A stretch of DNA of 56,646 nt, taken from assembly GCA_012959605.1 (NCBI GenBank), contig DUCU01000128.1:417-57062 (forward strand). The letters are read 5' to 3'. Positions 1-11,088 of the stretch are shown in pieces. Each line of letters begins with the position of its first letter. The stretch's first letter is position 1. Position numbers and translations under genes: made by a program. The notes under the pieces were generated by a model that was given only the letters and a program-made list of their open reading frames with translations, did no database searches and had not been told where the DNA came from. Source of the stretch: Dehalococcoidia bacterium. Its GTDB lineage: Bacteria; Chloroflexota; Dehalococcoidia; Lucifugimonadales; UBA3495.

Positions 1-453
1 AATGGCTTCGTCCGCTCCCATGCGTCCCACTGGGCCCGTAGCATACATTGCGCCCAGCACCGTGCCGCCTCGGCCCAATAGGAACTCTGTGGGCTGGATG
101 TAACCGCCTCTGTCTTCTGACCACCATGATCCTAGCATGTCGCCGTCGGCTTTGGTTGCGGCGTAAGCCATAGGAAAAGTCAACTTATTGTTGTCGACGA
201 CTTCCTGGGCCAGTTCTTTGGTGTCAACGCTGACGGCATAGATGGTAACGTCCAGTTCCTCCAGCGCAGATTTGTTCGCTTCCCACTCGGCTAACTGCCG
301 ATTGCAGTAAGGTCACCAATGGCCTCGGTAGAACAGCAACGCTGTGTACCGGGTAGGTGCGTCGTCGGGTAAGGTGATAGTTCCTCCATCCAGCAGCTGG
401 AAGGTGACCTTTGGAAGACGATCCCCTTGTAGTAATTTCTCTCCCATTATCAT
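1..453 (-). CDS. Selenocysteine-containing peroxiredoxin-like protein (partial)
   Basis: AhpC/TSA-fold thiol peroxidase, expected to reduce hydroperoxides in the cytosol. The frame from ATG at 453 is open to the window edge except for one TGA at codon 47 (313-315), inside FYRGHW-TGA-PYCNRQL. Family members have FYRGxWCPYC there, so the TGA replaces the peroxidatic cysteine and gives a UxxC site with Cys50 as resolving partner. Conserved sequence continues after it (for example YAVSVDT, SWWSEDRGGYIQP, FLLGRGG), so this is not a true end. TGA ends other genes here, so the code is not reassigned. A hairpin fitting the bacterial SECIS model follows the codon. The SD-like GAGGA precedes ATG 453, and ATG 447 is an alternative start. 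The C-terminus lies outside the window. Selenocysteine insertion is inferred; the TGA in place of Cys is seen directly. Confidence 0.82.
287..301 (-). other. Candidate bacterial SECIS hairpin
   Basis: Counting from the base after the TGA at 315-313, nucleotides 12-16 (UCGGC) pair with 22-26 (GCCGA) around the loop AGUUA. The loop starts 17 nt downstream and has G at its second position. This matches the published bSECIS model: small stem, G in the first two loop positions, loop 16-37 nt after UGA. The pseudogene copy keeps four of the five pairs. The pairing is seen; the role is inferred. Confidence 0.6.
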
Positions 454-594: not shown

Positions 595-1170
595 CTAGGC
601 CATATTTTGAGCCACGGCCCCGTGGAACTGATCGCGAATCTCCACCGGAGTGTGGGTAACGCGGGATATATTCTTCACTGGAGCTATTCCAACTTTAGCC
701 AAGATTAGACGTGGCCCATGATTCCCTTCACCGTTGGTCAACGCTCTGGCCAACTGTTCCGCACCTTCCACCCGTTCAGCATGTCGGTATCCGCAGCTCG
801 CGGCGATCTCGGCTAAATCTATCTGACCCGTGATTGAAGGTTGGGCCCCTGTCGATTCATAGCTCTCGTTATCCAAGATGATGTGCAGAAAATTGGGCGG
901 AGCTTCACTGGCAATTAAAGCTAAAGTTCCCATGCTCATCAGCGTGCTTCCATCACCTTCAATGACAACCACTCTCTGGTTGGGGTTGAGCAACGCCAGA
1001 CCCAGACCAAATGAAGACGCTAGGCCCATGGACCCAAGCATGTAAAAATTACCGGGCCGGTCTTGTGTAACAAAGAATTCTCTTGAGATCATTCCGGTGG
1101 TGCTGATTACAAGTTCGTCATCATCAACATGATCAGCAATGATTTTGATCGCGTCGATACGGCTAATCAC
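595..1170 (-). CDS. Sulfopyruvate/phosphonopyruvate decarboxylase-like, beta subunit (TPP-binding)
   Basis: C-terminal, TPP-binding half of a 2-oxoacid decarboxylase (191 aa). FYMLGSMGLASSFGLGLAL and EGDGSTLMSMGTLALIAS, followed about 25 residues on by the asparagine in LDNESYESTGAQPS, form the GDG-N Mg-TPP motif. The sequence resembles ComE and the C-terminal half of phosphonopyruvate decarboxylase (AepY). It overlaps the alpha-subunit gene by ATGA, so the two are translationally coupled. The split arrangement favours the sulfopyruvate type, but no sulfonate or phosphonate genes lie nearby, so the substrate is open. Confidence 0.8.
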   Translation of the reverse strand: MISRIDAIKIIADHVDDDELVISTTGMISREFFVTQDRPGNFYMLGSMGLASSFGLGLALLNPNQRVVVIEGDGSTLMSMGTLALIASEAPPNFLHIILDNESYESTGAQPSITGQIDLAEIAASCGYRHAERVEGAEQLARALTNGEGNHGPRLILAKVGIAPVKNISRVTHTPVEIRDQFHGAVAQNMA

Positions 1171-1670
1171 AGGACAACTCCGGGACGAATTAACAATGCC
1201 CCTGGAACAGATTTTTCATTCATTGTCGCCAAAAGCCGATCGATGCAATCTTCAAACCCCTCTGTCTCCAGAATTTCGAATGGTAATTCGAGGGTTTCAA
1301 GAATCTCTGTGGATTTAGTTCCCATCACCCAGTGTTCCGGAGCGTCGTTTGGTGGTCCGCCGTACCCGCGCCAGCCAACTATCAGCAACACTGGTACATG
1401 GTACATCAAACTGAAGGACGTTAATGGATTCACTACGTTGCCAATTCCGGAGTTTTGCATGATTACAGCCCCGACTTCGCCCTGAAAATATGCGGCGCTG
1501 GCTATCCCCAATGCCACGTCTTCTCGCACCGCCGGAACGTACCTGATCTCAGGATCATCAACCATATGATCGTACGTTTTTTTAAATGTTGAATCCGGAA
1601 CTCCGGAAACGAACGTGATTCCCCTAGACTTAACGAATTCCCAGAATGCACTTGGCTCTATCGCTGTCAT
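1167..1670 (-). CDS. Sulfopyruvate/phosphonopyruvate decarboxylase-like, alpha subunit
   Basis: N-terminal (pyrimidine-binding) half of the same TPP enzyme (167 aa). FVSGVPDSTFK, REDVALGIASAAYFQG (the glutamate is the expected TPP-activating residue), QNSGIGNVVNPLTS and LLIVGWRGYGG are shared with ComD and AepY proteins. The start at 1670 has no clear Shine-Dalgarno sequence, but no better start is visible. First gene of a two-gene operon. An alpha2beta2-type complex with the product of 595-1170 is expected from the family. Confidence 0.8.
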   Translation of the reverse strand: MTAIEPSAFWEFVKSRGITFVSGVPDSTFKKTYDHMVDDPEIRYVPAVREDVALGIASAAYFQGEVGAVIMQNSGIGNVVNPLTSFSLMYHVPVLLIVGWRGYGGPPNDAPEHWVMGTKSTEILETLELPFEILETEGFEDCIDRLLATMNEKSVPGALLIRPGVVL

Positions 1671-1898: not shown

Positions 1899-2095
1899 TT
1901 CCCTATCTCCTTAGGTTTTTCGGACAATATTCTGCAACGTCTGTTCTAACTGCAGTTTACCAAACTGGTCTTTGATTTTTACACGTCAACTTGCCTCGAC
2001 CTGAGCAGGTCAATACAATCGGTACTGGAACGGAACGCCAGCAAGGCTATTTACGCAACATCAACCTAAAACATCAACTTACCGGGAGGCAGGAC

Positions 2096-2809
2096 ATGGC
2101 AGAGGAATTGGGACGGGTACAACGGCCCCCGGCAAGTCAATATGACGGCAAACGCAAACTTCTGTTAGTGCCTTTAATCTACGGCCCCCAGGCCGACGAT
2201 GCAGAAGGCACTGCCGTTCTCCAGAACTACTGGGAGCAGATGAAGACCCAGGTTGAAGCGCTGCAAGAGGCGTTAGGCGGTCTCCATCACATCTATCACG
2301 AGAGTTTGACTGTTGGCGGTACTGAAGGCCTAGCCCAACTGGGCACTGCCGACCTGCGCAGCCACAGCTTCATATCCGGCAAGACCGAGTCTGGCTCCGT
2401 GCTGGAAGCCACTGAGGATATGGACGTGTTGCTGGAAACATTAGACCTGCAACGCTGCATGATGATTCCCTTGGCCAGCGCCAGCGTAGGATCAAAACTT
2501 CAGGAGTGGCACTCTGAAAGCAACCGGCAGCGCTACGACCATATAGCCGCCAATATCGACAGCACACTTGGGGAAAACGAGACGGGCCTGCTGTTGATCA
2601 GTGAACGCCATCAGGTGCAGTTCCCCAGCGACATTGAGGTCTTCTACGTGTCTCCGCCAGCTCTGGACGAATACCGACGCTGGTTCAACAACTGGATGGA
2701 ACAGCAGCAAGCCGCCGCCGCAAAAGAGTCGTCAGGGGAATCAGAGACCGACAATGGTGCCGCTGATACCGCCAAGAACTCGGACAGCACTGAACCTGAA
2801 TCCGAATAG
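2096..2809 (+). CDS. Hypothetical protein, charged, 237 aa
   Basis: Not recognised. The frame opens at 1991, but GGGAGG lies 7 nt before the ATG at 2096, which is taken as the start. A conserved-looking core (KRKLLLVPLIYGPQ, VLEATEDMDVLLETLDLQ, GLLLISERHQVQFPSDIEVFYVSPPALDEY) alternates predicted helices and strands. The tail after about residue 200 is low-complexity and rich in Ala, Glu and Ser. No signal peptide or membrane segment is visible, so it is probably a soluble cytosolic protein. It stands alone between two minus-strand units. Confidence 0.65.
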   Translation: MAEELGRVQRPPASQYDGKRKLLLVPLIYGPQADDAEGTAVLQNYWEQMKTQVEALQEALGGLHHIYHESLTVGGTEGLAQLGTADLRSHSFISGKTESGSVLEATEDMDVLLETLDLQRCMMIPLASASVGSKLQEWHSESNRQRYDHIAANIDSTLGENETGLLLISERHQVQFPSDIEVFYVSPPALDEYRRWFNNWMEQQQAAAAKESSGESETDNGAADTAKNSDSTEPESE

Positions 2810-7201: not shown

Positions 7202-7699
7202 TTATTTTTCCCCCTCGGGGCTTGGCGGCCTATAGAACATGGTCTCGGTGTTCCGCGCCAGCAATTCTTCCCGTTGGTTATAAAACGTCGTCTCAATCAC
7301 CTGGAAGATGATAAGACCTGACCGGGTAGTCCGCTCATACACATCTTTTACCTTCCAGTGGGCCGAAATCACATCATCCGGATGAATGGCCTGGAAGAAC
7401 TCGTACTCATTGCCAGCCCTTAGGCCTTTCAATTCCCGGGTTGGCCCCCGACCAATAAGGTCGCCTAACTCGTCCATGTCGCTATCAACGTATTGCCAGG
7501 TGTCGCAGATCAACGTTGGCGGGGCCATCACGTCCCTAAATCCTTGGGCCTCGGCGAATTCTCGATTAGAATACAATGGGTTGAAATCGCCTATGGCCAA
7601 GGCGTACTGGCGGAGCGAGGACCGGCCAATCTCGTCAGGCGCCTGCAAAATGATCTCTTGCCCTATCGTCTTGTTCAATTTTTCCAGCAAGCTAGGCAC
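7202..7699 (-). CDS. MaoC N-terminal-domain protein (FAS1-like dehydratase family)
   Basis: 165 aa, GTG start at 7699. Single hot-dog domain of the PF13452 type: GRSSLRQYALAIGDFNPLY, APPTLICDTW, LRAGNEYEFFQAIHPDDVI. The histidine of the hydratase motif (GDxNPxH) is Tyr here, as is usual for the non-catalytic half of heterodimeric hydratases such as HadA in HadAB. It stops one base before the GTG of the catalytic MaoC gene, which supports a two-subunit enzyme. Confidence 0.85.
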   Translation of the reverse strand: MPSLLEKLNKTIGQEIILQAPDEIGRSSLRQYALAIGDFNPLYSNREFAEAQGFRDVMAPPTLICDTWQYVDSDMDELGDLIGRGPTRELKGLRAGNEYEFFQAIHPDDVISAHWKVKDVYERTTRSGLIIFQVIETTFYNQREELLARNTETMFYRPPSPEGEK

Positions 7700-9475: not shown

Positions 9476-9738
9476 GCGGCAATCGAGGCTACCGGGTATT
9501 GGTGAAGGGGTGGTTACAAAATCGGGACAGTAGACATTATTCACCAACATCAGGGGTAAAAGGGGATGCAAATTTGTTGACGGTGGGTCGAGCCGTGGCT
9601 ATGCTGGCAGGAAATCCGATGGCAGATTTCTTTAAGTCGGTCCGCCCGGGCATGCAACTAAAATCAGCGCCAGGCATCATATAATAGCTAGGCAAATCCA
9701 GCGGCCTGCCTCTACTAAAATGAGAGGCAGTACAAGGA

Positions 9739-10210
9739 ATGACCATCGGCGAAAAGCTACAACAGGGAGATCGTCTCCCCAAGATCACCCTCAATCATCT
9801 GGAAGGTGGGACGCTAACCCTGCCAGATGATGCACCCACATGATATACAGTTCTGCTGTTTTTCCGGGGACACTGGTGACCCTACTGCAAACGGCAGTCA
9901 GCCGAATTGGAAGCAAACCGAGCTGAATTAGAAGCTCTGGGCACAACGATTATCGCTGTCAGTGTCGACAACGCGGAACAGGCCGGTGGGATGATTTCAA
10001 GTTCACCATGGCCTACGGCGCCACCAAATAGGACGGCGAATTAATTGGCGCATGGTGGTCTGAAGACCGAGGCGGTTACATACAACCGGCCGAATTTCTA
10101 TTGGGCCGCGGCGGCGTGGTGCTTGGCGCCATGTATGCCTCTGGACCCGTGGGACGTATGGGGCTGATGAGGCGGTACGCCTGATCACCGACCGCGAGAA
10201 CCGACGCTGA
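9739..10210 (+). pseudogene. Decayed second copy of the selenocysteine peroxiredoxin
   Basis: It aligns codon for codon with 453-1: ATG after AAGGA, then MTIGEKLQQGDRLPKI, LEGGTLTLPDDAPT and FFRGHW-TGA-PYCKRQ. The TGA at 9877-9879 is codon 47, exactly as in the other copy, and the downstream CGGC-AGUCA-GCCG hairpin (9892-9904) persists. Inactivating changes include TGA at codon 35 (CGA or CGG to TGA; Arg in the other copy), a deletion and frame change near 9984, TAG at 10027 and a frameshift near 10160. The original end was probably ITDRENRR then TGA at 10208. Being broken, it is a fossil that supports the selenocysteine reading of the first copy. Confidence 0.8.
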
Positions 10211-10275
10211 GAGGCCGAGGGCGAGGCCCACTAACCTCAGCAATCACTCTTAATAAAAAACATTGGAGGAGAGCC

Positions 10276-11088
10276 ATGAGTAACCAACAGGTGGTAGACC
10301 TGATGGAGCACGTCTGGAGTTCCATAGAATCTTTGTGCTCTTCCTTTGATGAAGTCCAATGGAAAACCCCCACAGATTGTCCTGGTTGGTCAGTCCAAGA
10401 CCAGATATCCCATCTGGTCGGCGCTGAGTCAGACATTCTAGGAAATCCCCGCCCCGACCACACACCGCAAAATACCCCCCACGTCAAAAATGATGTCGGC
10501 GAGTCAAACGAAGTCGTTGTCGACTTTCGTCGCTCGTGGACCGGCCTTGAGGTTTTGGAAGAGTTCCGGGTCTTGACCGAATTACGGATGGAATTCTTAA
10601 AAGGCCTGACGGATGAGGGTTTTGCAGCGGAGACCCAAACTCCGTTAGGACCGGGCACCATCACTGATCACGTCCGCATTCGAATCATGGACGCCTGGGT
10701 TCACGAGCAAGATATCCGACGGGCACTGAACATCCCGGGTGGACTGGACGGGCCTGTGGCTGCGCACTCAGTGGGCCGGTTCACGAACGCTATGCCATTT
10801 GTGGTCGCCAGGAAAGCCCAAGCCCCGGACGGCTCCACTGTGGTATTCAACGTCACCGGTCCTGCCGGCCGGGTGGTCTCAGTAGTGACGGACGGACGCC
10901 GTGGCAGTGAAATAGATTCGGAACCGGAGTCTCCCACAGTCAGAATCACATGTGACGTAGAAACCTTTGCCTGCTTGGCGTGTGGACGCGGGGACCCTTC
11001 AGAAGCGCTGTCTTCCGGCAAAATTACCCTCTCCGGCAACACAGACCTGGGCGAAAACATCGTTCATCAGATGAATATCATGATCTGA
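10276..11088 (+). CDS. Maleylpyruvate isomerase-family mycothiol-dependent enzyme
   Basis: 270 aa with TTGGAGGAGAG before the ATG. The N-terminal DinB-like four-helix domain (about 1-160) includes CPGWSVQDQISHLVG and IMDAWVHEQDIRRAL, whose histidines match the metal-ligand positions of the family. The C-terminal SCP2-like domain covers about 170-265. Known members use mycothiol, an actinobacterial thiol, for isomerisation or other thiol-dependent steps; which thiol this organism has cannot be told from the window. It lies directly downstream of the peroxiredoxin pseudogene in the same direction. Confidence 0.8.
   Translation: MSNQQVVDLMEHVWSSIESLCSSFDEVQWKTPTDCPGWSVQDQISHLVGAESDILGNPRPDHTPQNTPHVKNDVGESNEVVVDFRRSWTGLEVLEEFRVLTELRMEFLKGLTDEGFAAETQTPLGPGTITDHVRIRIMDAWVHEQDIRRALNIPGGLDGPVAAHSVGRFTNAMPFVVARKAQAPDGSTVVFNVTGPAGRVVSVVTDGRRGSEIDSEPESPTVRITCDVETFACLACGRGDPSEALSSGKITLSGNTDLGENIVHQMNIMI

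Follow-up and report, generated by a model that had tools for sequence, protein, structure and literature searches.

A recently decayed Prx-like selenoprotein gene at its ancestral site, with an intact copy of another lineage nearby, in a Dehalococcoidia genome

Introduction

When a genome carries two copies of a selenoprotein gene and one of them is broken, which copy is the original, and how did the other come to stand beside it? This question is raised by the window analysed here, a stretch of 56,646 nucleotides (bases 417-57062 of contig 128) from a Dehalococcoidia bacterium. The genome, G000, is a 2.8 Mb draft in 134 contigs that is 92% complete; among named genomes it is closest to SAR202 and other Chloroflexi (Dehalococcoidia). 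An earlier note on this DNA described a broken gene, hereafter the fossil, and an intact homologue 9 kb away, and explained the pair by duplication followed by loss of the spare copy. Bacterial selenoprotein genes have been reported as lost in sister genomes while relatives keep them, a conclusion inferred from absence (PMC1794560); the word "pseudogene" is absent from that text. In contrast to those losses, a decaying remnant is visible here together with another, working copy.

Results

The region 9739-10234 of the forward strand has the features of a true pseudogene of a Prx-like (AhpC/TSA, UxxC) selenoprotein (Table 1). Homology between the fossil and the intact copy is clear at both levels, with 68% amino-acid identity over the first 81 codons (tblastn, E 3e-34) and 70% identity over 438 nt of DNA (blastn, E 2e-53). 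The AhpC/TSA domain, PF00578, is recognized in the translated part of the fossil (8.1e-15, 55.3 bits) as well as in the intact copy (7.5e-19, 68.3 bits), against a cut-off of 26 bits. Relative to intact relatives at the same locus, the fossil has six disabling differences: its start codon reads ATC instead of ATG, three stops lie in frame and two deletions break the frame. The stop at codon 35 and two frame changes had been recorded in the earlier note and are indeed present; the TAG, the third TGA and the ATC start are additions to them. That note had ended the fossil at 10210, slightly short of the original stop codon, TAA, at 10232-10234. We take codon 3 as the start, since codon 1 reads GTA, GTG or GTC in most relatives, where an AAGGA-like site precedes the ATG of codon 3 by six bases. 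The TGA at codon 35 was considered as a second Sec codon and rejected, since the Arg of live relatives at this position marks it as a mutation. Just upstream of the ribosome site of the fossil, at 9705-9730, lies a perfect 8-bp inverted repeat (CTGCCTCT...AGAGGCAG). This upstream hairpin is strong in the fossil and not significant in most relatives; weaker GGCC repeats occur at the equivalent place in several relatives, and none precedes the intact copy.

Table 1. Positions in the window of the two Prx copies, their parts and their neighbours
Feature	Position	Strand	Remarks
Intact Prx-like selenoprotein gene, other lineage	1..453	-	Runs off window; end on same contig
bSECIS-type hairpin TCGGC-AGTTA-GCCGA, intact copy	287..301	-	5 pairs
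Sec codon TGA, intact copy	313..315	-	
TPP enzyme C-terminal subunit (phosphonopyruvate/sulfopyruvate decarboxylase-like)	595..1170	-	Adjoins intact copy
TPP enzyme N-terminal subunit, same pair	1167..1670	-	Unlinked to Prx in six relatives
Conserved gene o1991	1991..2809	+	Directly after tRNA-Ser(CGA) in relative G003; far edge of putatively inserted stretch
o7202	7202..7699	-	Upstream neighbour of ancestral Prx site
Fossil Prx-like selenoprotein gene	9739..10234	+	Codon 1 to original stop
Lost start codon	9745..9747	+	ATC; codon 3, ATG in live relatives, 6 nt after AAGGA
Nonsense TGA, codon 35	9841..9843	+	Arg in live relatives
Former Sec codon TGA, codon 47	9877..9879	+	RGHW-U-PYC
Remains of bSECIS-type hairpin ACGGC-AGTCA-GCCGA, fossil	9891..9905	+	4/5 pairs; core 9892-9904
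Frame-breaking deletion site	9985..9998	+	13 nt vs G003, 10 nt vs G010/G007
Nonsense TAG	10029..10031	+	GAG (Glu) in live G011, G007
Second frame-breaking deletion site	10161..10164	+	
Third nonsense codon, TGA	10208..10210	+	Near C-terminus; Arg in live relatives
o10276, mycothiol-dependent maleylpyruvate isomerase-family gene	10276..11088	+	Intact; downstream neighbour of ancestral Prx site

Both copies carry TGA at codon 47, as the earlier note had stated. In SAR202 homologues this codon is TGA, followed by xxC, and in others, which are more distant, it is TGC or TGT. This pattern identifies the family as one of selenoproteins of the Prx-like UxxC type. The genome also encodes selA, selB, selC and selD. 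The tRNA-Sec scores 67 bits, over the cut-off, in agreement with ARAGORN, and SelB, SelA and SelD score 350, 563 and 375 bits. The SelD gene (G000 C133:12395-13318; L239) has one in-frame TGA, and SelD is probably itself a selenoprotein. Close copies of the Prx gene occur once per genome, each with one TGA, in about 35-36 genomes of the family besides this one, and a second close copy was found in no other genome of the family. Across the order, a match at E 1e-20 is present in 104 of 250 genomes. Nearly all of these matches carry a single TGA, and three of the listed copies have none.

Two described groups resemble this family. Prx-like 1 of the Global Ocean Sampling survey (pfam00578, UxxC; PMC2398784) shares with it the AhpC/TSA domain, the W-U-P-Y-C motif found here and an origin in marine bacteria. 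A text search of that survey for Chloroflexi gave no match, whereas the present data place the family in SAR202, alongside a full Sec machinery. The assignment to Prx-like 1, rather than to a sister subfamily, is a tentative lead. The SelL-related redox proteins (NF040769) give a weak profile match to residues 12-94, but its 28.9 bits are far under the 120-bit cut-off, and the protein here has one Sec (UxxC).

A bSECIS-type hairpin follows the Sec codon. In the published model, the loop has 3-9 nt with G in its first two positions and then G or U, the stem has 4-16 bp, the distance from the UGA is 16-37 nt and the MFE is <= -7.5 (PMC13188914). The intact copy conforms to this model, with the loop AGUUA starting 16 nt after the UGA, GU at loop positions 2-3, a stem of 5 bp and a folding energy of -11.4 kcal/mol. 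In the fossil, the loop, the distance and the 4-bp stem fit, but the MFE, -6.8 kcal/mol in a 42-nt stretch, does not; the fold is weaker than in the live genes and no stronger than that of synonymous recodings (z 0.07). Among 25 live genes, the TGA and the codons CGG (Arg52), CAG (Gln53) and GCC (Ala55) are each found 25 times, while other invariant residues of the same genes are mostly written with two to five codons each. Because these codons are fixed where codons elsewhere vary, the hairpin is taken as real and under selection. Codon invariance is far stronger evidence than folding energy against synonymous recoding, which in single genes is a weak test (mean z -1.4). The earlier note counted four of five pairs in the fossil, correctly; the missing one, an A.A mismatch at the outer pair, is not a sign of decay, since the live gene of G011 has the same A.A. 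Among live genes this pair varies between T-A and G-C. In an Rfam scan of the window only a tRNA-Lys was reported, with the SECIS family unmatched.

The neighbouring genes show which copy stands at the original site. Six members of the genus (G001, G002, G004, G006, G009 and G011) have their single Prx immediately upstream of the o10276 homologue, an arrangement that recurs in other genera (G041, G048 and G049). In G011, G003 and G041 the Prx comes after homologues of o1991, o3078 and o7202, and the fossil holds exactly this position. Since its neighbours are those that flank the only live Prx in relatives, the fossil, and not the intact copy, occupies the ancestral site. The earlier note had raised the possibility that one paralogue is missing in close relatives, and this is so: the other family genomes with a close copy have exactly one, and the nearest sister, G008, has both site neighbours with about 220 bases between them (L229 6467-6690) and no Prx. 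A search for a Prx remnant between these neighbours in G008 gave no match; its contig ends before the tRNA-Ser site. G010 likewise has no Prx at the ancestral site, its own being elsewhere, next to an MBL-fold gene. The Prx thus has an unstable position in the genus, whereas its count of working copies remains one. The MBL-fold hydrolase gene (G010 C7:22746-24347; L144-L149) is confined to the six genus members in which it adjoins the Prx, a distribution as if both had moved together.

The intact copy is located 9 kb away, as first reported, at 453-1 of the reverse strand. Its end lies outside the window, behind a run of 24 N on the same contig (L003 393-416) that falls inside the end of the gene. 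The copy adjoins tRNA-Ser(CGA) at contig 145-234. In G003, tRNA-Ser directly precedes o1991, an adjacency seen in this one relative; here the Prx and the decarboxylase genes stand between them, the tRNA-Ser side being joined to the window across the 24-N gap. Two decarboxylase genes and a short stretch common to G008 fill the space between the intact copy and o1991. Neither an integrase nor an att repeat was found at this site, and a search for long repeats, inverted or direct, gave nothing informative either between the two copies or around the tRNA-Ser. The GC content is 0.47-0.52 in the stretch of the intact copy and 0.54-0.59 further in; it is also lower around the fossil, at 0.50-0.53, so base composition is not decisive on transfer.

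To place the two copies, their descent was compared with that of the genomes. In the SelB tree and in a six-gene neighbour tree, G000 groups with G008 (support 100/100 in the latter), inside a clade with G009, G001, G006, G004 and G002. The intact Prx falls inside the clade of these five relatives (99-100%), and the fossil falls outside it. A tree with the fossil and the intact copy as sisters is rejected (AU p=0.004, lnL 27 lower), as is one that nests the fossil with the five relatives and sets the intact copy apart (AU p=0.004). A tree in which the fossil branches as sister to the entire intact-copy clade is not rejected (AU p=0.37). The Prx alignment is short, with 513 columns, and does not fix the exact branching place of the fossil. 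At third positions the two copies have diverged by 0.53; for the intact copy against the five relatives the figure is 0.36-0.48, and for vertically inherited genes 0.37-0.56. These tests, the placement of the intact copy and the divergence agree that the split between the two copies most likely predates that between the intact copy and those of the five relatives. Because its divergence equals that of vertical genes, a recent transfer of the intact copy is unlikely; an old paralogue fits as well.

The decay can be dated by the pattern of substitutions, the approach proposed in the earlier note. Changes specific to the fossil amount to 9.5, 9.3 and 41% at codon positions 1, 2 and 3, the same skew as in live genes. 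This third-position bias indicates that the fossil worked until recently, remaining functional for most of its separate history, and that its decay is young. The neutral share of its branch is estimated by resampling at 0 to about 9%; this is a rough approximation, and three nonsense changes are somewhat many for such a short time.

Discussion

The gene at the ancestral site probably decayed after the lineage had gained a second, older-diverged version at tRNA-Ser(CGA). According to this proposal, one Prx-like selenoprotein gene would have stood between the o7202 homologue and the maleylpyruvate isomerase-like gene, with Sec inserted at its TGA by SelB and tRNA-Sec and a hairpin loop starting 16 nt after that codon. 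A second, older-diverged version would also have been present in the lineage, next to tRNA-Ser(CGA) and accompanied by a two-subunit TPP decarboxylase. As either copy could serve in place of the other, the one at the original site would have been freed from selection; its start codon would have been lost, and three stops and two deletions that break the frame would have accumulated in it. The TGA and the hairpin may survive in it only because the decay is young. We infer from this arrangement that the intact copy was inserted, that its arrival came before the decay and that redundancy was the cause. The intact copy may have come by transfer or may be an old paralogue.

An old duplication with differential loss is possible, if short of probable. 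Two Prx loci would have existed in the genus ancestor, most lineages would have kept one, and G000 would have kept both until the original-site copy decayed, with no transfer between cells needed. This alternative is a variant of the proposal above and differs only in the origin of the second copy. It agrees with the vertical-like divergence of the intact copy from its relatives, with the placement of this copy in the clade that the species tree predicts, and with the restriction of the MBL-fold gene to six genomes with an adjoining Prx, which suggests another Prx site in the genus. However, two close copies occur in no other genome of the family, and in the five nearest relatives it is the intact-copy lineage that occupies the o10276 site, which requires a further rearrangement or replacement to be assumed.

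A recent duplication within the genome, followed by loss of the spare, is the account that the earlier note had favoured, and the two homologues, 9 kb from each other and alike in their TGA codon, speak for it. It is rejected as very unlikely: the copies are only 70% identical at the DNA level, their sister relation is rejected, and the ancestral site of the relatives' only copy is held by the fossil and not by a spare. Damage of a live gene by assembly or base-call errors could be imagined in a draft of this completeness and contig number, but that note already doubted sequencing error, and the idea is highly improbable with three nonsense codons, two deletions and the loss of the start concentrated in one 500-nt gene, a neighbour (10276-11088) that is open over 270 codons, a best match of the fossil to any live copy found of only 76% nt, and no N in the window. 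Finally, a remnant that still works, for example as an RNA hairpin binding SelB or through a short read-through product, would explain the kept TGA and four hairpin pairs, but it is scarcely credible given that a pseudogene this young would be expected to retain them anyway, that the fold is above the energy limit of the bSECIS model (PMC13188914) and that the usual start codon is gone.

Selenoprotein loss, displacement and pseudogenes are known kinds of event, and the value of this locus is a visible intermediate of turnover, with a dead copy at the old site, a working copy nearby and a sister genome in which the old site is empty. Loss of a selenoprotein gene at one site need not mean loss of selenium use. 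The fossil also offers a natural test of how long a TGA and its hairpin outlive selection. It is conceivable, though we consider it unlikely, that the Prx-like selenoprotein gene is repeatedly displaced in the genus by its own incoming or relocated versions at different sites, each genome returning to one working copy and second Sec copies not being tolerated for long. Elsewhere in the same order, a Prx copy in G204 (C77:4830-5267) has an in-frame TAG in addition to its TGA and is possibly a second decaying copy. In G146 (C43:47916-48878) two family copies are adjacent; one has a TGA and the other no stop at all, so that they may form a tandem Sec/Cys pair.
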